DNA from: an uncultured Prevotella sp.
Lineage (GTDB): Bacteria; Bacteroidota; Bacteroidia; Bacteroidales; Bacteroidaceae
Length of the DNA: 64,000 nt
Direction of reading: 5' to 3'
Assembly: GCA_945830055.1 (NCBI GenBank)
Contig: CALZXH010000003.1
Coordinates: 1 to 64,000, forward strand
Shown: one piece after another, positions 5,704 through 17,511 of the stretch
Layout of the letters: every line of letters begins with the position of its first letter
Position numbering within the stretch: the first letter of the stretch is position 1
Position numbers and translations under genes: made by a program
Notes under the pieces: generated by a model
Told to the model about the DNA's origin: nothing
Database searches by the model: none
What the model saw: only the letters and a program-made list of their open reading frames with translations

Positions 5704-5840
5704 AAAATAACAGTCTTTTGTTTTCGGGTGCAAAGTAACTGCCTTCACATTACAACAAGACTACAAAACGGTCAAAAGGAGGATACGAAGCCGTTACAAT
5801 CCGGTAAACGATACAATCCGTCATTTTTTCGTGAAAATAT

Positions 5841-5871
5841 TTTGCAGTTTAAAACTAATTGCCTACTTTTG
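5841..5871 (+). promoter_or_regulatory. Bacteroidetes-type promoter of the trp operon: TTTG-N19-TACTTTTG
   Basis: TTTG at 5841-5844 and TACTTTTG (TAnnTTTG) at 5864-5871 with 19-nt spacing. Confidence 0.7.
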
Positions 5872-5891
5872 CCAACGAAAAGAAACAATAG

Positions 5892-5960
5892 ATGCACATG
5901 AAACAGATGAACAGCATATTTTGGTGGCACCGCTCGGAGTTAGAAACAACCGCGAGTTAA
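5892..5960 (+). CDS. trpL: trp operon leader peptide MHMKQMNSIFWWHRSELETTAS (may start at the second ATG, 5898)
   Basis: ATG CAC ATG AAA CAG ATG AAC AGC ATA TTT TGG TGG CAC ... AGT TAA: tandem Trp codons at 5922-5927, directly upstream of trpB. Confidence 0.75.
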   Translation: MHMKQMNSIFWWHRSELETTAS

Positions 5961-6032
5961 GTTGCCGTATATATATTGTTCACAGCATACCATCCATCAG
6001 GCTCGTCGGTCAACGGCGGGCCTGGTTTGTTT
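5933..6032 (+). promoter_or_regulatory. Ribosome-mediated trp attenuator (1:2, 2:3 antiterminator, 3:4 terminator)
   Basis: 1:2 CTCGGAGTT(5933-5941)/AACCGCGAG(5948-5956). 2:3 ACCGCGAG(5949-5956)/CTCG-T-CGGT(6002-6010). 3:4 AGGCTCGTCG(5999-6008)/CGGCGGGCCT(6014-6023), followed by GGTTTGTTT. Confidence 0.72.
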
Positions 6033-6071
6033 AAGACAACATACAGAACTGAAAGAAAACAACATACACAC

Positions 6072-7277
6072 ATGAAAAGCTATTTGGTTGACGACAAAGG
6101 TTTTTACGGAGAATATGGCGGGGCATACGTACCGGAAATACTGTATGCCACAGTAGAGAACCTCAGAAAACAGTATCTCGACATCCTGGAGACCAAGGAG
6201 TTTCAGGACGAGTATGCTGCCCTGCTCAGAGACTATGTGGGGCGCCCGTCGCCCCTCTACTACGCCAGGAGGATGAGCGAGAAGTACGGTTGCCACCTGT
6301 ATCTGAAGCGTGAGGACCTGAACCATACGGGTGCCCACAAGATCAACAACACCATCGGACAGATACTGCTGGCCAAGAAGATGGGCAAGACAAGAATCAT
6401 CGCCGAGACGGGTGCCGGACAGCACGGAGTGGCTACCGCCACCGTATGCGCGCTGATGGACATGCCCTGCGTGGTATATCAGGGGGCACTCGACGTGGAG
6501 CGGCAGAGCACCAACGTGGAGCGCATGAAGATGCTGGGGGCTGAGGTGAGACCCGTGACCTCGGGCAACGCAACCCTGAAAGACGCCACCAACGAAGCCA
6601 TCAGAGACTGGTGCTGCCACCCCTCTGACACGTTCTATATCATCGGTTCTACGGTGGGACCCCACCCCTACCCCGACCTGGTGGCCCGGCTGCAGAGCGT
6701 CATTTCCAAGGAAATCAAGGAACAGCTGATGGAGAAGATAGGGCGCGACTATCCCGACTACCTCATGGCTTGCGTGGGGGGCGGCTCCAACGCGGCGGGC
6801 ACGGTCTATCATTATGTAGATGACGAGCACGTGGGCATTATCCTGGCTGAGGCAGGAGGCAAGGGGGCTGACAGCGGGCATACGGCTGCCACCATACACG
6901 CAGGTAGCATGGGCATACTGCACGGGGCACGCACCCTGGTGATGCAGACGGCAGACGGACAGATAGTGGAGGCGGAGAGCATCTCGGCAGGACTGGACTA
7001 TCCGGGCATCGGTCCCATGCACGCCAATCTGGCCAAACAGCGCAGGGCAACCGTGCTGAGCATCAACGACGACGAAGCTGTAAGGGCAGCCTACGAACTG
7101 ACCCGACTGGAGGGCATCATACCCGCCTTGGAGAGTGCCCACGCCATCGCGGCGCTGGACAAGGTGAGGTTCAAGCCCGACGACGTGGTGGTGCTTACCG
7201 TCAGCGGCAGGGGCGACAAAGACGTAGAGACCTATCTGGCAAACAAGAACATGACTAACCTGACTACACGACCATGA
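6072..7277 (+). CDS. trpB: Tryptophan synthase beta chain
   Basis: MKSYLVDDKGFYGEYGGAYVPEIL; KREDLNHTGAHKINN (PLP lysine); ETGAGQHGVATAT; CVGGGSNAAG. The track ORF start at 5976 lies inside the leader; ATG at 6072 is preferred. Confidence 0.96.
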   Translation: MKSYLVDDKGFYGEYGGAYVPEILYATVENLRKQYLDILETKEFQDEYAALLRDYVGRPSPLYYARRMSEKYGCHLYLKREDLNHTGAHKINNTIGQILLAKKMGKTRIIAETGAGQHGVATATVCALMDMPCVVYQGALDVERQSTNVERMKMLGAEVRPVTSGNATLKDATNEAIRDWCCHPSDTFYIIGSTVGPHPYPDLVARLQSVISKEIKEQLMEKIGRDYPDYLMACVGGGSNAAGTVYHYVDDEHVGIILAEAGGKGADSGHTAATIHAGSMGILHGARTLVMQTADGQIVEAESISAGLDYPGIGPMHANLAKQRRATVLSINDDEAVRAAYELTRLEGIIPALESAHAIAALDKVRFKPDDVVVLTVSGRGDKDVETYLANKNMTNLTTRP

Positions 7278-8683
7278 AATTCCAATATACCACCGAGAGC
7301 CGCACCATGCTTGCCGACCTCTACACACCTGTGGGGGTATATATGCGCATGAGAGACCTCTGCGCACAGAGCATGCTGCTGGAGAGTTCAGACTATCACG
7401 AGGCGTCCAACAGCCGTTCGTTTATCGGCCTCAGTCCTATCGGCAGCGTCGCCATAGGCCACGGATATGCCGTATGCCACTACCCCGACGGGAGCACCAC
7501 GGAGAGCGAAGTGAATGCGGGGTACCCTACCGAAGAGGTGATCAACGAGTTTCTCAGCCATATCAGCATCACGGGCAGCCGGGCGGACGTGTGCGGCCTG
7601 TACGGCTATACCTCGTTCAACGCCGTGAGGTATTTTGAGAACATACCGGTGAAGGACTGCACGATGGAGAAGAACGACGCGCCCGACATGATGTACATAT
7701 TATATAAGGACGTGATCGTGTTTGACCACTACAACAACCTGCTCACCCTGGTCACCCTGAACGGCGGGAGCGACGCCACGGAGGCACAGCTGCACCTGGA
7801 CGAACTGGTGAAGCAGATGAACCGAAGCGGCGTGCACGACTACGGTTTCCATACCGTGGGCGACACCACCTCGCCGCTCACCGACGAGCAGCACAAGGCG
7901 AACATACGCAAGGGCATCGCCCACTGTCTGCGCGGCGACGTGTTCCAGATAGTGCTCTCGCGCCGCTTCGTACAGAAATACGAGGGCGACGACTTCAAAC
8001 TGTACCGTGCCCTCCGCTCCATCAACCCCTCGCCCTACCTGTTCTATTTCGACTTCGGTGGCTTCCGCATCTTCGGTTCCTCGCCTGAGACCCACTGCAG
8101 GATAGAGGGCGGCAGGGCATACATCGACCCCATCGCCGGCACGACCAAGCGCACGGGAGACGCCGAGGCTGACAGAAGGGGGGCGGAATACCTGAGAAAC
8201 GACGCCAAGGAGAACGCCGAGCACGTGATGCTGGTTGACCTGGCGAGGAACGACCTGAGCAGGAACTGCCACGGGGTGAAGGTGGATTTCTACAAGGACC
8301 TGCAATACTACTCGCACGTGATACACCTGGTGTCGAGGGTGAGCGGACAGCTCGACGAGGGGGCTGACCCCGTGAAGGCATTCATCGACACCTTCCCTGC
8401 CGGCACGCTGTCGGGAGCACCTAAGGTGAAGGCGATGCAGCTGATCAGCGAGATAGAACCGCACAACAGGGGTGCCTACGGCGGTTGCATAGGCTTTATA
8501 GGCTGCAACGGCAACCTGAACCAGGCCATCACCATACGCACCTTCGTATCGCGCAACGGCGAACTGTGGTTCCAGGCGGGCGGCGGCATCGTGGCGAAGA
8601 GCGACGAGGAGTACGAACTGCAGGAAGTGAACAACAAGCTGGGGGCGCTACGCAAAGCCATGGAAAAAGCCGAACAGATGTGA
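7274..8683 (+). CDS. trpE: Anthranilate synthase component I
   Basis: DVFQIVLSRRF, SPSPYLFYF-type motif, GSSPETHCRIEGG, DPIAGTTKRT, FPAGTLSGAPKVKAMQLI, GCIGFIG; ATGA overlap with trpB. Confidence 0.95.
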   Translation: MKFQYTTESRTMLADLYTPVGVYMRMRDLCAQSMLLESSDYHEASNSRSFIGLSPIGSVAIGHGYAVCHYPDGSTTESEVNAGYPTEEVINEFLSHISITGSRADVCGLYGYTSFNAVRYFENIPVKDCTMEKNDAPDMMYILYKDVIVFDHYNNLLTLVTLNGGSDATEAQLHLDELVKQMNRSGVHDYGFHTVGDTTSPLTDEQHKANIRKGIAHCLRGDVFQIVLSRRFVQKYEGDDFKLYRALRSINPSPYLFYFDFGGFRIFGSSPETHCRIEGGRAYIDPIAGTTKRTGDAEADRRGAEYLRNDAKENAEHVMLVDLARNDLSRNCHGVKVDFYKDLQYYSHVIHLVSRVSGQLDEGADPVKAFIDTFPAGTLSGAPKVKAMQLISEIEPHNRGAYGGCIGFIGCNGNLNQAITIRTFVSRNGELWFQAGGGIVAKSDEEYELQEVNNKLGALRKAMEKAEQM

Positions 8684-8735
8684 CGCGGGGCATCCCGGAG
8701 CATCAGCATCATCATCCACCAACAACGCTATCAAC

Positions 8736-9299
8736 ATGAAAACCGTTATCATCGACAACTACGATTCGTTTACATACAACCTGAGCCATCTGATCAAGGA
8801 ACTGGGGGCACAGGTGACCGTATTCCGCAACGACTGTTTCGAACTGTCGCAACTATTGCAGTTCGACAAGATTATTCTCAGTCCCGGTCCGGGCATCCCC
8901 AAGGAGGCAGGACTGCTGACGGAGGTAATCAGCACCTACGCGGGCATCAAGCCCATGCTGGGCGTATGTCTGGGGCACCAGGCCATCGGCGAGGTGTTCG
9001 GAGGCTCGCTGCAGAACCTGACCGACGTGTTCCACGGAGTGGCCACAGAGGGCACACACCTCGGCAACGACTATATCTTCGAGGGGGTGCCTGCACGCTT
9101 CGTCATGGGCAGATACCACTCCTGGGTGGTGGCGAAGGAAGAGTTTCCGACCTGCTTGGAGATTACCGCCGAGAGCGACGAGGGACAGATCATGGCACTC
9201 AGACACCGGCTGTACGACATCCACGGCATACAGTTCCATCCGGAAAGCGTGCTCACCCCGATGGGGAAGACCATCATACAGAATTTCCTTTCACACTAA
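8736..9299 (+). CDS. trpG: Anthranilate synthase component II (glutamine amidotransferase)
   Basis: IDNYDSFTYNLSHL, LSPGPGIPKEAG, GVCLGHQAIGEVFGG, GIQFHPESVLTPMGK. Confidence 0.95.
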   Translation: MKTVIIDNYDSFTYNLSHLIKELGAQVTVFRNDCFELSQLLQFDKIILSPGPGIPKEAGLLTEVISTYAGIKPMLGVCLGHQAIGEVFGGSLQNLTDVFHGVATEGTHLGNDYIFEGVPARFVMGRYHSWVVAKEEFPTCLEITAESDEGQIMALRHRLYDIHGIQFHPESVLTPMGKTIIQNFLSH

Positions 9300-9341
9300 A
9301 CACACGTAACAAGACACACATAAACATAAACATTTGACACC

Positions 9342-10352
9342 ATGGAAAACTCGATGAAAGAAATACTCAACCGCCTGCTCAACCACGAGGAGCTGACCAG
9401 GGAGGAGACCAAGGGCATACTGCTGGGCATCACCCGCAGCGAATATACGATAGAGCAGATTTCAGCCTTGCTCACCGCCCTGCAGATGAGGGGCATCACG
9501 GTAGATGAACTGCTGGGCTTCAGGGACGGCATACTGGAAACGGGAGTGCCCGTGCCGCTGGACTGCGACCGCTATATCGACGTGGTAGGCACGGGAGGCG
9601 ACCGCAAGAACACGTTCAACATCTCTACCACCTCGTGCTTTGTCATAGCCGGAGCGGGCTACAAGGTGGCGAAGCACGGCAACTATGCGGCGACAAGCAC
9701 CAGCGGTGCCTCCAACGTCATCGCCCGTCACGGAGTGACCTTTACCGACGACATCGACCGGCTGAACAGATGTCTGGACGAGTGCGGCATCGTGTATCTC
9801 CATGCCCAACTGTTTGCCAAGGCGATGAAGTTTGTAGGCCCTATCAGGAAGAACCTGCAGTTTCCTACCTGCTTCAACCTGCTGGGACCTATCGTGAACC
9901 CCTCGAAACCACAGTGCCAGCTGCTGGGAGTGGCCAATCTGGACCAGATGAGACTGTACCACAACGTATATCGCAAAATAGGTATTGACTTCGGCATCGT
10001 GAACAGCATCGACGGCTACGACGAGATTTCGCTCACCGGCGACTTCAAGGTGACCACCAACCAGTACGAGCGCATCTTCAGTCCGCACGACCTGGGCTTC
10101 GACATCGCCAAGCCCGAAGAACTGCAGGCGGGGGCCGACGAGGAAGAGGCTGCCAGGATATTCGACAGCGTGCTGGAGAACAGGGCGCTGCCTGCACAGA
10201 AGAACATCGTGCTTGCCAACGCCGCCTTCGGCATCCAGGTGCTGGAGGGAGGAAAGAAGGACATCGAGGAGTGCATCGCCATCGCCCGTGAGTCTATCGA
10301 CAGCGGCAGGGCGCTGCAGACCTTCAGGAAATTCGTGGAACTGATGGCATAA
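9342..10352 (+). CDS. trpD: Anthranilate phosphoribosyltransferase
   Basis: DVVGTGGDRKNTFNISTTSCFVIAGAGYKVAKHGNYAATSTSGASNV; FNLLGPIVNP. Confidence 0.95.
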   Translation: MENSMKEILNRLLNHEELTREETKGILLGITRSEYTIEQISALLTALQMRGITVDELLGFRDGILETGVPVPLDCDRYIDVVGTGGDRKNTFNISTTSCFVIAGAGYKVAKHGNYAATSTSGASNVIARHGVTFTDDIDRLNRCLDECGIVYLHAQLFAKAMKFVGPIRKNLQFPTCFNLLGPIVNPSKPQCQLLGVANLDQMRLYHNVYRKIGIDFGIVNSIDGYDEISLTGDFKVTTNQYERIFSPHDLGFDIAKPEELQAGADEEEAARIFDSVLENRALPAQKNIVLANAAFGIQVLEGGKKDIEECIAIARESIDSGRALQTFRKFVELMA

Positions 10353-10358
10353 GACGGC

Positions 10359-11153
10359 ATGAAAGACATACTGGAAGAGATTGTGGCTTACAAACGCCAC
10401 GAGGTAGAGGAATTCAAGAGGCTGAAAGACCGGCAGCTGCTGGAGCAGGAGGTGGAAGCCATGCTGCACGACAGTCCGGCACCCCCCTCCATGTCGCAGG
10501 CACTGACGGCATCTGCCACGGGCATCATCGCCGAGTTCAAGCGCAAGTCGCCCTCCAAGGGATGGATCAAGGAGGAAGGGAGTGCCGCCATCATCCCCCT
10601 GGGCTACCAGCAGCAGGGGGCTGCCGCCGTCAGCATCCTTACCGACAGCCGTTTCTTCGGCGGGGACGATGCCTTCATCACCACGGCACGCCACAGCGGG
10701 GTAACCCTGCCCATCCTCTACAAGAACTTCGTGATTGACGAATACCAGCTGTTCCAGGCACGCCGCTGCGGAGCCTCTGCCGTACTGCTCATCGCCGCCT
10801 GTCTGCCGAAGGAGGAGTGCGCCCGGCTCACCCGTCTGGCACACGGACTGCAACTGGAAGTGCTGTTGGAGATGCACCACGAAAAGGAACTGGAATATAC
10901 GGCGTGCGGCGCTGACATGTGCGGCATCAACAACCGCAGTCTGGGCACCTTCGTCACCGACGTGGACCACTCCTTCAGGATGGCGCCGCTGCTCCCTGCC
11001 GGTTGCGTCAAGGTGAGCGAGAGCGGCATATCGTCGCCCACCGTCATCAAGGAACTGAGAGCGGCAGGCTACAACGGTTTCCTCATCGGCGAGTGTTTTA
11101 TGAAACAGGAACAGCCCTCCGAGGCACTTCACCAATTCATCTTACAATTATGA
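10359..11153 (+). CDS. trpC: Indole-3-glycerol phosphate synthase
   Basis: IAEFKRKSPSKGWI, ILTDSRFFGG, LYKNFVIDEYQL, GINNRSLGTF, SESGISSP. Confidence 0.95.
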   Translation: MKDILEEIVAYKRHEVEEFKRLKDRQLLEQEVEAMLHDSPAPPSMSQALTASATGIIAEFKRKSPSKGWIKEEGSAAIIPLGYQQQGAAAVSILTDSRFFGGDDAFITTARHSGVTLPILYKNFVIDEYQLFQARRCGASAVLLIAACLPKEECARLTRLAHGLQLEVLLEMHHEKELEYTACGADMCGINNRSLGTFVTDVDHSFRMAPLLPAGCVKVSESGISSPTVIKELRAAGYNGFLIGECFMKQEQPSEALHQFILQL

Positions 11154-11827
11154 TCATCAAGGTTTGTGGCATGACCCGCCCCGACAACATCAAGGAGGTA
11201 GCGGAGGCAGGAGCAGAGTGGATAGGCATGATATTCTGGCGGAAGTCGCCGAGATATGTCCCCATGCAGGGCATCATGGCGGGCATCGTTCCCGACAGGG
11301 GCTCCATCCGGCAAGATGCGTTCGGCAGCGCACGGCGCGTGGGGGTATTTGTGGACGAAACGCCCCAAAGCATCATCACCCATGCCGTGCAGTTCCGGCT
11401 GGACTTCATCCAACTGCACGGACAGGAACCGCCCACCCTGATAAGGAACCTGAAGGAGACGCTGCACGACCTGTGTCCGGGCATCAGGTTCATCAAGGCG
11501 CTGAGCATCAAGAGCGGCGACGACCTTGCTAAATGGGAGGAATACCGCCACTGTGCCGACTACCTGCTGCTGGACACCAAATGCCCCTGTGTGGGCGGCA
11601 GCGGCAGCAAGTTCGACTGGCAGCTGCTGGAGCAATACCGGGGCGACATCCCCTTTCTGCTGAGCGGAGGCATCGGCGAGGAAGATGCGGAAGCCGTCGC
11701 TTCCCTGCGCCATCCCATGCTCTACGGCATAGATATCAACTCACGGTTCGAGACCGCACCGGGCATCAAGGACGCCCGACGAATCCAATCATTCATCCAA
11801 AAACTGCGACAACATGAACAAGATTAA
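11150..11827 (+). CDS. trpF: Phosphoribosylanthranilate isomerase
   Basis: [45 protein letters not shown] at 11150 gives a 4-bp overlap with trpC; the track ORF start at 10919 is an upstream over-extension. Confidence 0.93.
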
Positions 11828-12590
11828 CGCACTATTCCAAAACAATAGCGACAGGAAACTCCTCTCGCTGTATTTCTGTGCCGGATGCCCCACGCTGGAA
11901 GGCACCGCCGACGTAATCCTCACCCTACAGGAAGGGGGTATCGACATGATCGAGGTGGGAGTACCCTTCAGCGACCCGATGGCCGACGGACCTGTGATAC
12001 AGGATGCTGCCACCAAGGCGCTGCGCAACGGCATGACTCTGGAACTGCTCTTCTCCCAACTGGAGGCTGTCAAGGACCGGGTACACATCCCCCTGCTGCT
12101 CATGGGCTACCTCAACCCCATCATGCACTACGGCTTCGAGGCGTTCTGCAAGCGGTGTGTGGAATGTGGCGTTTCGGGGGCAATCATCCCCGACCTGCCT
12201 TTCAAGGACTATATGGAACAGGTGAAGCCTGTGGCTGACAAATACGACCTGCGCATCATCATGCTCATCACGCCCGAGACGAGCGAGGAGCGCATCCGAT
12301 TCATCGACGAGCATACCGACGGCTTCATCTACATGGTGTCTTCCGCCGCCATCACGGGCGCACAGAAGAGTTTTGACGAGCAGAAGCAGCAGTATTTCAA
12401 GAGAATCAACGCCATGCAACTGCGCCATCCCCGCATGATAGGCTTCGGCATCAGCAACCGCCAGACGCTGGAAAGTGCGTGCGACAACGCTGCGGGTGCC
12501 ATCATCGGCAGCAAGTTCGTGACCCTGCTGAGCGAGAGCAAAAACGCCCGGGAAGCACTGGATAAATTGCAGGATGCGCTGAAAAATTAA
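11814..12590 (+). CDS. trpA: Tryptophan synthase alpha chain
   Basis: [48 protein letters not shown]; 14-bp overlap with trpF. Confidence 0.95.
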
Positions 12591-12744: not shown

Positions 12745-15700
12745 ATGAAGTATCTACAATGGCTACTGCTCTTTGTATGGCTCCCCCTCACGGCAAGCGC
12801 CGACGCATGGGAGACACAGTACAAACAGATTGAGCAAAGTATCAGACAACCACAGTTTGCTGACAAGGATTTCCCCATCACGAAGTATGGTGCCAGTACA
12901 GCTGCCACTGCCGCTGTGAACCAGAAGGCTATCAACAAGGCTATCGCCGCATGCTCCAAGGCTGGCGGCGGTAGGGTCATCGTGCCTGCCGGAACCTTCA
13001 ACACGGGTGCCATCACCCTGCTGAGCAAGGTGAACCTGCACGTCGAAAAGGGGGCTGTGCTGCAGTTCGTCTTCGAGCCCGACCTCTACCCCATCGTGCT
13101 CACACGCTGGGAGGGACTGGACTGCTGGAACCTGTCGCCGCTGATCTACGCCTACAAGCAGACCGACATCGCCGTAACGGGCGAGGGTGTGATTGACGGA
13201 GGCGGCACCAACGAGACCTGGTGGAAATGGTGTGGCGCTCCCCACTACGGATGGACCGAGGGCACCATCAGCCAGCGCAACGGCAGCAGGGCACGCCTGC
13301 TGAAACAGGCGGAGGACGGTGTGGACATGAACGAACGCCGCTTCGACAAGAACGACGGATTGCGCCCGCAGATGGTGAACTTCATGCACTGTGACGGTAT
13401 CCTCATCGAGGGTGTCACCCTGTTGCGCTCTCCGTTCTGGGTGCTTCACCCCGTGCTCTCGAAGAATGTGACGGTAAGGGGTGTGAAAATCAACAACGAC
13501 GGTCCTAACGGCGACGGCTGCGACCCCGAGTCGTGCGACGGCGTGCTGATCGAGGACTGCTACTTCAACACCGGCGACGACTGTATCGCCATCAAGAGCG
13601 GACGCAACAACGACGGCCGTCTGTGGGGCAAGCCCAGCGAGAACATCATCATCCGCAACTGCGAGATGAAGAACGGACACGGCGGCGTGGTGATAGGTAG
13701 CGAGATAAGCGGTGGCTGCCGCAACGTGTTTGCCGAGAACAACAAGATGGACAGTCCCAACCTGGACCGCGTGGTACGCATCAAGACCAACACCTGTCGT
13801 GGCGGTGTGGTGGAGAACATCTACGCCCGCAATATCGAGGTGGGCCAGTGCGGCGAGTCGGTTCTGAAGATCAACCTCGACTACGACCATAACGAGATAT
13901 GCTGCCGCGGACATCTGCCCGTGGTACGCAACGTGAACATCGAGAACATCACCTGCCAGAAGAGCAAGTACGGCGTACAGGTGGTAGCCCTCGACACCTG
14001 CACCAACGTATATGACATCCATGTGAAGAACTGCAGGTTCAACGGAGTGAAGCAGGGCAACTTCTTCTCAGGCAAGACACGCAACATCACCTTGGAAAAC
14101 CTGTATATCAACGGCGGTCTGGTGCTGCAGGAAATGCCCTACAAGCATTACAGCGAGTGGCTGGTGGCATCAGAGATGAAGCGCAACCCCGAATCCTACA
14201 AACTCGACTTCAGCAAGCGTGCCAAGTGGAGTTATGTGATGGGCATCGAACTGGAATCCATGCTCGACACCTATCTTAAATACGGCAACGAGGAGATCCG
14301 CCGCTACTGCCAGTCATATACCGACACGATGATTACTGCCGAGGGCGTCATCAGAGACTACAGGCTGGATGACTACAACCTCGACCAGATACGCACGGGC
14401 CATTTCGTGGCAAGGATGTACCAGAACTATCCTGAGAAGAAGAACCTGAAGGCCATGCAGACGCTGATGAAGCAGCTGGACAAGCAGCCCCGTACCAACG
14501 AGGGTGTTTATTGGCACAAGGCCATCTACGCCTACCAGGTATGGCTCGATGGCATCTTCATGGGACTGCCTTTCCGCGCCCTTACTGCCAACATGCTGCT
14601 CAAGGGAAAGAAGGCACAGAAGATTTATGACGATGCCGTAGATCAGATTTCCAAGACCTACTACCGCACCCTGGACAAGAAGACCGGACTGAACCGCCAC
14701 GCCTGGGACGAAACCAACCACCAGTTCTGGGCTGACAAGGAGACGGGTCTGTCGCAACACTGCTGGGGAAGGGCTCAGGGATGGTACACCATGGCGCTTA
14801 TCGAACTGCTCGACGCGCTGCCCGAAGACTACGCCCGCAGGGGTGAGGTCATCGACCTGCTCAAGAAAGACCTGGATGCCGTGATCAAATGGCAGGACAA
14901 GGAATCGGGAGTGTGGTATCAGGTGATGGACAGTCCGAAGGAAAAAGGCAACTACCTGGAGGCCACCTGCTCGTCCATGTTCACCTACGCCCTGCTCAAG
15001 GCTTACCGCAAGGGATATGTGGGCGCCAAGTACCGCGATGCCGGTATCAAGGCTTACCGGGGCATCATCCACAACTTCATCCGGGTGAATCCCGACAAGA
15101 CCATCTCTCTCACCCAGTGCTGCGAGGTGGCAGGCTTGGGTCCGGGAGCCACACCTGAAGTGAATGAAGCGCTGAAGAAGATAAATCCCAACAAGAAGGC
15201 GATAAAATCGAACACACGGCGCGACGGTTCCTACGGTTATTACATCAGCGAACCCATCAGAGAGAACGATGCCAAAGGAGTAGGACCTTTCATCTGGGCC
15301 TCTCTTGAAATGGAAGCGTTAGGGTTTGACACAGAGAACACCACCTGTTCCATCGACCGACAATCAGTAGTATATAGAAACAACCCCATCTTAAGAGAAG
15401 CCAACCCCTTGGCTTCTCTTACTGTAGGTAACGGGCACTTTGCCGCTACCGTGGATGTGACAGGCTTGCAGAGCTATCCCGAGGACTACAAGCAGGGCAT
15501 TCCCCTCAACACGATGAGCGACTGGGGATGGCACAGTTTTCCCAATACCGACAACCTCAAGCAGCAGGAAACGGAGGGTAGCTTCAACCTGGGCCACGGA
15601 CATGAGGAGGTTTATGCCGTGGAATACAAGAAAGGCGGACGCCAGCAGGAAGCTACCAAGTATTTCCGTGTCAATCCCCACCGCCTGCATCTCGGTGCCA

Positions 15701-17511
15701 TCGGCATCACCCTGAAAGATACGCTGGGCAACATCGTGCCGCTGAAGGAACTGCGTGACATCCGTCAGGAACTGGTGCTCTGGGACGGCACTATCCAGTC
15801 AGTCTATACCGCTGCCGGCGAGAAAGTGGAGGTGACCACCGCCTGCATGCCCAACAGCGACGGCATCTTTGCGCGCATCAACACCCCGCTGCTCAAGAAG
15901 GGACAGGCTGCCATATCCATCCGTCTGCCCTATCCCACCGGTCAGCATGCCGACGACGCTGCCTGCTGGACAGAAGACGGAAAGCATCAGTCTGCTGTCG
16001 TCGCCTCTGACAAGCAGAGTGCCACCATCGCACACACCATCGACCAGACCACCTATTTCATCACCCTGCGCTGGGAGGGAGAAGCCTCGCTCAAGGAAGT
16101 GGCTCCCCACCACTTCATGCTGACCTCAGCTGAGGATGTGCTGGCTTTCTGTGCCGAGTATGCACAGAAGCAGAACCGCATGCGCCCTGCCCCGTTTGAG
16201 TACGACCAGGCCCTGAAAGCCGTGATCAAGAAACAGAACAAGTTCTGGCGCAGCGGTGCCTTCGTGGATTTCGGTGCCTGCACCGATCCCAGGGCTGCCG
16301 AACTGGAGCGCAGGGTTATCCTGTCGCAGTATCTTACCGCCGTGAACTGTATGGGCAACATGCCCCCACAGGAAACAGGACTGACCTATAACTCATGGTT
16401 CGGAAGACCTCATCTGGAAATGACCTGGTGGCACGCCACCCACTTCGCACTCTGGAACCGCCACGAGGCGCTGAAGCCTATGCTCGGCTGGTACAACGAC
16501 GTGGCTTTCCCCATCGCCAAGGAGATTGCCAAGCGCCAGGGATTCGAAGGTGCACGCTGGATGAAGATGACCGACCCGCAAGGCGGCGAGGCTCCTTCCA
16601 ATACGGGTTCGTTCCTTACCTGGCAGCAGCCGCATTATATCTATCTGGCAGAAGAGATGTACCGTCAGGAACCTACGGCAGAGACGCTGGCGACCTACGG
16701 CGAACAGGTGGAACAGACCGCCCTATTCATGGCTGACTTCGCCCGCTGCTGTAGCAAGGACAAGAAGACACCCATCAAACTCTTCGGACAGACTGCCATG
16801 CAGGAATCCATGTCGAAGGATTTCTCCTACCACCATCCTTTTGAACAGGTATATTGGTACTACGGAATGGCTATCGCACAGCAGTGGCGCGAGCGTCGCG
16901 GAATAGAGCGCAACGCGGAATGGGACGAACTGATGGCTCGGCTGGCTCCTCTGGCTGAGCAGGACGGCATCTATACTGCCGGCGCTCCCCTGACGGCCTT
17001 CGACAACGGCACCAAGGCGGCTGGCTTTGACCCCTACGTGAGTGCTGAGCAGACGGGCAGGAAGAGCATTTCTGAGGAGGATTTCGCCCTGAAGTCACGC
17101 AGCGACCATCCCGCAGTACTCGGAGCCTGCGGTCTGCTGCCCGCCACCGACCAGTACGAGAAAGGGAAAATGGGTACTACCCTTCAGTGGGTGATGGACA
17201 ACTGGGAATGGGGCACCACCTGGGGATGGGACTATGGCATGATAGCCACCTGTGCCGCTCGCCTAGGACAACCCGAAAAGGCTTTGCAGGCGTTGCTGAT
17301 TGACAAGGGAAAGAACACCTATCTGCCCAACGGGCACAACTTCCAGGAGCCCAAGCGTCTGCGCCTGTACCTGCCCGGCAACGGAGCCTTGCTCACCGCC
17401 GTGGCGATGATGTGCGCGGGCTGGGACGGCTGTCAGATGCCTTCCAACCCCGGTTTTCCGCAAGACGGCACATGGAACGTGCGCTGGGAGGGACTGAACA
17501 GAATGCAATAA
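12745..17511 (+). CDS. Multidomain pectinase: GH28 polygalacturonase + GH105 unsaturated galacturonyl hydrolase + C-terminal (alpha/alpha)6 glycosidase-like domain
   Basis: 1588 aa. GH28 NNDGPNGDGCDPESCDGVLIEDCYFNTGDDCIAIKSGRN / GHGGVVIGSE (about 12.8-14.15 kb). GH105 WQDKESGVWYQVMD / CWGRAQGWYTMALIELLD (about 14.25-15.33 kb). C-terminus NPLASLTVGNGHFAATVDVTGLQSYPEDY...WNRHEALKPMLGWY (about 15.36-17.5 kb). Confidence 0.88.
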   Translation: MKYLQWLLLFVWLPLTASADAWETQYKQIEQSIRQPQFADKDFPITKYGASTAATAAVNQKAINKAIAACSKAGGGRVIVPAGTFNTGAITLLSKVNLHVEKGAVLQFVFEPDLYPIVLTRWEGLDCWNLSPLIYAYKQTDIAVTGEGVIDGGGTNETWWKWCGAPHYGWTEGTISQRNGSRARLLKQAEDGVDMNERRFDKNDGLRPQMVNFMHCDGILIEGVTLLRSPFWVLHPVLSKNVTVRGVKINNDGPNGDGCDPESCDGVLIEDCYFNTGDDCIAIKSGRNNDGRLWGKPSENIIIRNCEMKNGHGGVVIGSEISGGCRNVFAENNKMDSPNLDRVVRIKTNTCRGGVVENIYARNIEVGQCGESVLKINLDYDHNEICCRGHLPVVRNVNIENITCQKSKYGVQVVALDTCTNVYDIHVKNCRFNGVKQGNFFSGKTRNITLENLYINGGLVLQEMPYKHYSEWLVASEMKRNPESYKLDFSKRAKWSYVMGIELESMLDTYLKYGNEEIRRYCQSYTDTMITAEGVIRDYRLDDYNLDQIRTGHFVARMYQNYPEKKNLKAMQTLMKQLDKQPRTNEGVYWHKAIYAYQVWLDGIFMGLPFRALTANMLLKGKKAQKIYDDAVDQISKTYYRTLDKKTGLNRHAWDETNHQFWADKETGLSQHCWGRAQGWYTMALIELLDALPEDYARRGEVIDLLKKDLDAVIKWQDKESGVWYQVMDSPKEKGNYLEATCSSMFTYALLKAYRKGYVGAKYRDAGIKAYRGIIHNFIRVNPDKTISLTQCCEVAGLGPGATPEVNEALKKINPNKKAIKSNTRRDGSYGYYISEPIRENDAKGVGPFIWASLEMEALGFDTENTTCSIDRQSVVYRNNPILREANPLASLTVGNGHFAATVDVTGLQSYPEDYKQGIPLNTMSDWGWHSFPNTDNLKQQETEGSFNLGHGHEEVYAVEYKKGGRQQEATKYFRVNPHRLHLGAIGITLKDTLGNIVPLKELRDIRQELVLWDGTIQSVYTAAGEKVEVTTACMPNSDGIFARINTPLLKKGQAAISIRLPYPTGQHADDAACWTEDGKHQSAVVASDKQSATIAHTIDQTTYFITLRWEGEASLKEVAPHHFMLTSAEDVLAFCAEYAQKQNRMRPAPFEYDQALKAVIKKQNKFWRSGAFVDFGACTDPRAAELERRVILSQYLTAVNCMGNMPPQETGLTYNSWFGRPHLEMTWWHATHFALWNRHEALKPMLGWYNDVAFPIAKEIAKRQGFEGARWMKMTDPQGGEAPSNTGSFLTWQQPHYIYLAEEMYRQEPTAETLATYGEQVEQTALFMADFARCCSKDKKTPIKLFGQTAMQESMSKDFSYHHPFEQVYWYYGMAIAQQWRERRGIERNAEWDELMARLAPLAEQDGIYTAGAPLTAFDNGTKAAGFDPYVSAEQTGRKSISEEDFALKSRSDHPAVLGACGLLPATDQYEKGKMGTTLQWVMDNWEWGTTWGWDYGMIATCAARLGQPEKALQALLIDKGKNTYLPNGHNFQEPKRLRLYLPGNGALLTAVAMMCAGWDGCQMPSNPGFPQDGTWNVRWEGLNRMQ

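Follow-up and report, generated by a model that had tools for sequence, protein, structure and literature searches.

How is transcription of the trp operon in the window, the whole stretch of 64,000 nucleotides from a Prevotella-type gut bacterium analysed here, adjusted to the supply of Trp? The operon is complete, its first gene, trpB, starts at position 6072, and the region directly upstream of trpBEGDCFA had been described by the first-pass annotation as a ribosome-mediated attenuator, with a promoter, a leader peptide carrying tandem Trp codons, and RNA segments 1 to 4 that pair in mutually exclusive ways. The features found there are collected in Table 1. Direct reading bears out the proposed promoter TTTG-N19-TAnnTTTG and the position of the two Trp codons 5 nt before segment 1. 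The open reading frame of 22 codons is also present as read, but translation probably starts at its second in-frame ATG (5898) and would yield a peptide of 20 codons, because the leaders of relatives read MKQLMNAWWW and MNTMNNNIWWW. The 3:4 terminator hairpin is present with 13 pairs, not the 10 that had been claimed, and lies with its tail between the putative leader frame and the first gene. It is GC-rich, has a 5-nt loop and folds alone at -23.1 kcal/mol (z ~ -5). It is followed by TTGTTT, and its U tract (GGUUUGUUUAA) is interrupted and weaker than that of most relatives. When positions 5750-6071 (322 bases) were shuffled 2000 times with dinucleotides preserved, a short frame with two adjacent Trp codons arose four times, a comparable terminator never and the two together never; the observation is therefore real and beyond chance.

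Table 1 Features of the trp leader region and operon in the window
Feature	Position	Strand	Description and basis
Bacteroidota-type promoter	5840..5871	+	TTTTG 5840-5844, 19-nt spacer, TACTTTTG (TAnnTTTG) 5864-5871; read from sequence
Putative leader-peptide ORF MHMKQMNSIFWWHRSELETTAS (then stop)	5892..5960	+	ATG 5892, tandem TGG 5922-5927, stop TAA 5958-5960; direct reading, shuffles, homologues
Segment 1 CTCGGAGT	5933..5940	+	Partner of segment 2; 5 nt past last Trp codon; A1 columns 45-52
Segment 2 ACCGCGAG	5949..5956	+	Family motif [AG]TCG[TC][GA][AG]G; overlapped by end of leader ORF; A1 columns 61-68
Segment 2b TGCC (family mostly AGCC)	5963..5966	+	Can pair with base of terminator 5' arm
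Predicted antiterminator of the window copy	5949..6010	+	Pairs 5949-5958 to 6000-6010 around a single bulge at 6006; about -12 kcal/mol if segment 1 is masked
Intrinsic terminator	5996..6034	+	5' arm 5996-6008, loop 6009-6013, 3' arm 6014-6026, tail TTGTTTAA
Predicted-regulated operon trpB-trpE-trpG-trpD-trpC-trpF-trpA	6072..12590	+	NCBIfam matches in order; ORFs

Directly 3' of trpA lies a single frame of 1588 aa (window 12745-17511), whose N-terminal part matches alpha-galacturonidase/polygalacturonase, with a weaker glycosidase match at residues 493-777; by these matches it is a multi-domain pectin-degradation protein. In the genus of the window genome, TrpB was matched at E <= 1e-100 in 15 of the sampled genomes, including that of the window, but not in another 18, each of which is about 99% complete. 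The 18 genomes without TrpB suggest that Trp synthesis is frequently lost in this genus, giving auxotrophy.

A search with the trpB protein gathered 80 named loci from Prevotellaceae and relatives, together with further genomes of the same family. A W-rich leader with the segment-2 motif was matched in 134 of the 148 usable trpB upstream regions; 133 (90%) were analysed as complete leaders, and terminators were parsed in 125 of these and in the window (126 in total). Several exceptions have another gene directly 5' of trpB, such as an apparent trpA in L046, L048, L059 and L065. The TAnnTTTG element stands upstream of the leader in 123 of the 133 homologues, versus 3% of shuffles. The tandem TGG of the 20-22-codon frame thus has its counterparts in 133 of 148 homologous leaders: three Trp codons are found in 106 of the 133 and two, as in the window copy, in 22. 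Most leaders read ...WWWRNSR(F/L), and WRW takes the place of WWW in some genomes (e.g. L103, L107, L108).

The spacing between codons and RNA segments is kept as well. Segment 1 starts 5 nt past the last Trp codon in 111 of the 133 leaders, so that a ribosome stalled there would cover it. The leader stop lies at -2 relative to segment 2 in 36 loci and at +4 in 76, and therefore a ribosome at the stop would cover segment 2; in the window the stop is 9 nt 3' of the segment 2 start. The masking of segment 1 by a stall at the Trp codons and of segment 2 by a ribosome at the stop, both predicted by the first-pass annotation, would fit the geometry of nearly all copies. Segment 1 is retained as RNA even though the reading frame through it differs (RNSRF, RSRD and LEIN versions, as in WWWRSRD and WWWRLEIN). 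Selection beyond the Trp codons therefore appears to act on RNA pairing and not on the peptide, which argues that the peptide would matter for its Trp codons only.

An alignment of trpB upstream regions had been named by the first-pass annotation as the check to make; it reveals a conserved Trp-codon frame and compensatory substitutions in both 1:2 and 3:4. In alignment A1, which consists of 55 divergent copies including the window, 95.8% of cells in the 1:2 helix are paired, five of its seven pairs have changed on both sides, and 45 double-change cells are counted versus 11.7 expected from shuffles. For the terminator, 96.7% of cells are paired, seven of ten 3:4 pairs have changed on both sides, and 56 double-change cells compare with 12 expected. 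When either helix is slid out of register, only 25-52% of cells pair, far fewer than in the native register. The window copy carries a compensatory change of its own in 1:2, from A-U to G-C at columns 51/62, found in no other copy.

Homology of the window copy to these leaders was assessed with two models, whose E-values are rough owing to a short calibration. Because model R1 contained the window sequence and would be circular, model R2 was built without it. R2 recovers the window copy at E = 1e-16 with 76 bits, a score as high as that of good relatives, and nowhere else in the window; it is the sole match at E <= 0.01 in its genome. Of 294 Bacteroidales genomes, about 105 have an R1 match at E <= 1e-7 and 198 at E <= 0.01. 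Only matches at E <= 1e-7 were counted, because generic terminators (such as L195, L196, L199) are common among the weaker ones (E ~1e-6 to 1e-2). In other Bacteroidota, R1 likewise finds clear W-rich leaders, here upstream of trpE or trpD.

This kind of leader is already known: it is Rfam RF01692 "Bacteroid-trp", the 'Bacteroidete tryptophan peptide leader RNA'. Weinberg et al. 2010 report it in their Table 1 and mark it as cis-regulatory and not a riboswitch (PMC2864571). Bacteroid-trp RNA has been described as a structured Trp-peptide leader that resembles its E. coli counterpart and is conserved in Flavobacterium psychrophilum (PMC6414381), a species in which clues to leader-peptide attenuation precede amino-acid operons (PMC9723704). 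Leader-like short frames also occur in 5' UTRs of B. thetaiotaomicron (PMC7366714). A search of the open-access literature found no laboratory test of attenuation in Prevotella or Bacteroides relatives. An Rfam scan of 10 kb around the element and of its 241 bases alone returned no trp leader, with RF01692 absent even at E <= 10, and RF01692 has no match elsewhere in the window's own genome either. The absent match first suggested an undescribed family, an idea that was dropped once relatives matched RF01692. The window copy does not reach the curated gathering score of 49 bits and is therefore not filed as a member by Rfam's criterion; it is too divergent for the model to report, with two instead of three Trp codons, an interrupted U tract and most of the pairing between segment 2 and the terminator 3' arm lost. 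The R2 alignment includes an RF01692-positive locus (L112, 52.6 bits), and since R2 finds the window copy, the two are joined by homology. RF01692 and R1 match the same loci (e.g. G502, G685, G032, G674), but RF01692 finds only 27 of the 294 genomes, 16 of them over its cut-off, versus the R1 count given above. The RF01692 consensus ends with GGCUUGUC, inside the terminator 5' arm, and therefore holds neither terminator nor antiterminator.

The window element is thus very probably a transcription attenuator of the Bacteroidota trp operon, orthologous to Bacteroid-trp. Ribosome-mediated attenuation is well supported by comparison because the architecture is conserved in 133 of 148 upstream regions, the 1:2 helix and the terminator show compensatory changes, and R2 finds the window. 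Sequence comparison shows that the Trp codons, the 1:2 helix, the terminator and a competing pairing of segment 2 are conserved; leader translation, stalling, termination and a response to Trp, which we infer, would proceed as follows. RNA polymerase would start just 3' of TACTTTTG, and a ribosome would begin to translate the short leader frame. With little charged tRNA-Trp available, that ribosome would stall at the tandem Trp codons and cover segment 1. This would allow segment 2 to pair with the terminator region, and the polymerase to continue into trpB. In the window copy, segment 2 would then lie on the terminator 5' arm; in most relatives it would lie on the loop and 3' arm, with help from segment 2b on the 5' arm. 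If Trp is abundant, the ribosome would cover segment 2 at the stop codon, or depart so that 1:2 pairs. With segment 2 unavailable in either case, the 13-bp terminator would form and transcription would end before trpB. The 1:2 helix, the pairing of segment 2 with the terminator region and the 3:4 hairpin are mutually exclusive.

The identity of the antiterminator has to be considered separately for the window copy and for the family. The 2:3 pairing put forward by the first-pass annotation stands as the best fold of the window copy, but the conserved alternative of the family is a pairing between segment 2 and the loop plus 3' arm of the terminator. In a co-transcriptional folding series with segment 1 masked, the window 2:3 fold of 10 pairs persists in transcripts whose 3' end lies at 6010-6018, after which the terminator prevails. 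Because the terminator (-26.5 kcal/mol) is thermodynamically more stable than any antiterminator (-12.3 kcal/mol), regulation in the window would have to be kinetic. Kinetic regulation is usual for attenuators. As a conserved family pairing, 2:3 was rejected: 88% of its cells pair, but no pair has changed on both sides, and swapped or shuffled partners pair at least as well as the native ones; it was kept for the window copy.

Across the family, segment 2 is complementary to the terminator loop and the start of the 3' arm (e.g. GTCGTAAG with CTTACGAC). The mean duplex energy of segment 2 is -10.4 kcal/mol with the loop and 3' arm and -4.5 kcal/mol with the 5' arm, and the former pairing is the stronger in 123 of 126 leaders. 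Swapping partners between species weakens both 1:2 (-7.1 to -5.5) and the 3'-arm pairing (-10.4 to -8.7) and leaves the 5'-arm pairing unweakened (-4.5 to -5.1). In A1, segment 2 and the 3' arm share 27 double-change cells versus 5.8 expected, and segment 2 and the 5' arm share none. When the terminator was disallowed through soft constraints, 112 of 126 leaders adopted a nested fold, with the loop and 3' arm taken up by segment 2 and the 5' arm by segment 2b (AGCC). Segment 2b pairs in 124 of the 126 predicted antiterminator folds, but its pairing with the 5' arm is suggestive only, because its own covariation is weak; in the window, only GCC:GGC is left of this pairing. In the window copy, segment 2 pairs with the 3' arm in only 4 of 8 columns, and in the family register the match with the loop and 3' arm is lost. 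This complementarity is kept in the close relatives L003 and L084, which also have one Trp codon more; Xylanibacter rodentium (L022/L087), of the same genus as the window genome, was compared as well. From sequence and energies only, there is about an even chance that Bacteroidota trp attenuators use a non-classical clamp, in which segment 2 would invade the loop and then the 3' arm (e.g. GUCGUAAG with CUUACGAC) and AGCC would hold the 5' arm, so that both arms are sequestered, and that the window's lineage has switched to the classical 2:3 pairing.

These losses raise the question of whether the window copy is a relic, an attenuator of the Bacteroid-trp kind that in this strain terminates constitutively or never. 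The missing 3'-arm pairing, the lower number of Trp codons, the weaker U tract and the failure of RF01692 to report the copy all point that way. However, the 1:2 helix is intact and even bears the compensatory change unique to the window, the 13-bp terminator is intact, a 2:3 antiterminator with its full 10 pairs exists in place of the lost one, the trp operon is complete, and the R2 score is on a par with good relatives. Decay is accordingly improbable. Because the hairpin lies about 45 nt 5' of the trpB ATG, it could in principle sequester the start of trpB instead of ending transcription. Such translational control is less probable still: the trpB start is not within the hairpin, and in most relatives a U run follows the stem immediately, at a distance from the gene that varies from about 16 to 190 nt, which fits termination and not masking of a start site.

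A structured leader before an amino-acid operon could also work without leader translation, as a T-box or as a riboswitch or protein switch that binds Trp. Rfam gives neither a T-box nor a riboswitch match in the 10 kb or the 241 bases scanned, the in-frame Trp codons are the most conserved element of the leader, and nearly every copy places its stop codon at segment 2; this reading is thus highly improbable. Short open reading frames are common, and one could fall by chance before an ordinary terminator. None of the 2000 shuffles produced the combination, however, and its conservation in 133 of 148 homologous leaders already refutes coincidence, whose probability is negligible. A ribosome-mediated attenuator orthologous to Bacteroid-trp is the reading retained here.

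In the E. coli trpL leader studied by Yanofsky, tandem Trp codons lie by segment 1, the stop codon lies at segment 2, and the 1:2 helix, antiterminator and terminator exclude one another. The window element is predicted to share this working logic. Unlike trpL, the Bacteroidota family appears to use mainly the loop and 3' arm, and not the 5' arm, as the partner of segment 2, and the first gene is trpB or trpE. With RF01692 the window element shares its position before Bacteroidota trp genes, a leader peptide with Trp codons and a homologous 1:2 hairpin; the differences are the terminator and antiterminator missing from the Rfam model and the unreported status of the window copy. Classical trp attenuators have also been predicted in Actinobacteria (PMC1262725). 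They likewise combine a Trp-codon leader peptide with conserved complementary triples common to antiterminator and terminator, but belong to another phylum and use another triplet motif, gGCC-rGCy-GGCC.

Other leaders were seen alongside. Tandem leader-peptide attenuators precede trpE or trpB at six loci from six different Bacteroidales families (L185 in G595, L186 in G405, L187 in G583, L188 in G611, L189 in G581 and L201 in G573). The two attenuators lie about 140 nt apart, both having Trp codons and a terminator of their own; the first leader of L201 (MKKLNTIWLPWWGLLT) was spotted by eye only and is not matched by the model. The only tandem attenuators found in a search of the open-access literature are those of Salmonella mgtCBR, which respond to different signals, ATP and proline (PMC3641672). 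Both systems have two successive leader attenuators, but two signals are read in Salmonella, whereas both attenuators of the Bacteroidales tandems read Trp codons; the window copy is single. Similar leaders occur before a hisG-like gene (L194, G563:C2; MIFVTLHHTHHHYLTL then stop, His) and an ilvD-like gene (L191, G436:C17; MKLLNTVLVVVVVVVLKNIE then stop, Val/Leu), both genes named by reading the protein sequence. By eye, segment 2 of these two pairs classically, with the terminator 5' arm. Trp-rich leaders also precede a trpB-like gene whose product differs at its N-terminus and may be TrpB2 (L198, G437:C41; MNSLVHVWWWRWFWFVRTKKSSMPGTDQ then stop), and before a trpG-like gene (L190, G668:C25; MNMFNVNNEYWWNSFYKNE then stop).

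The current Rfam model misses most copies of this leader and ends inside the terminator. The comparison yields an explicit antiterminator, predicted and testable, that is unlike the textbook one. A complete and conserved trp attenuator would be the standard control of Trp synthesis in Prevotella and Bacteroides relatives, which are dominant bacteria of the gut and rumen.
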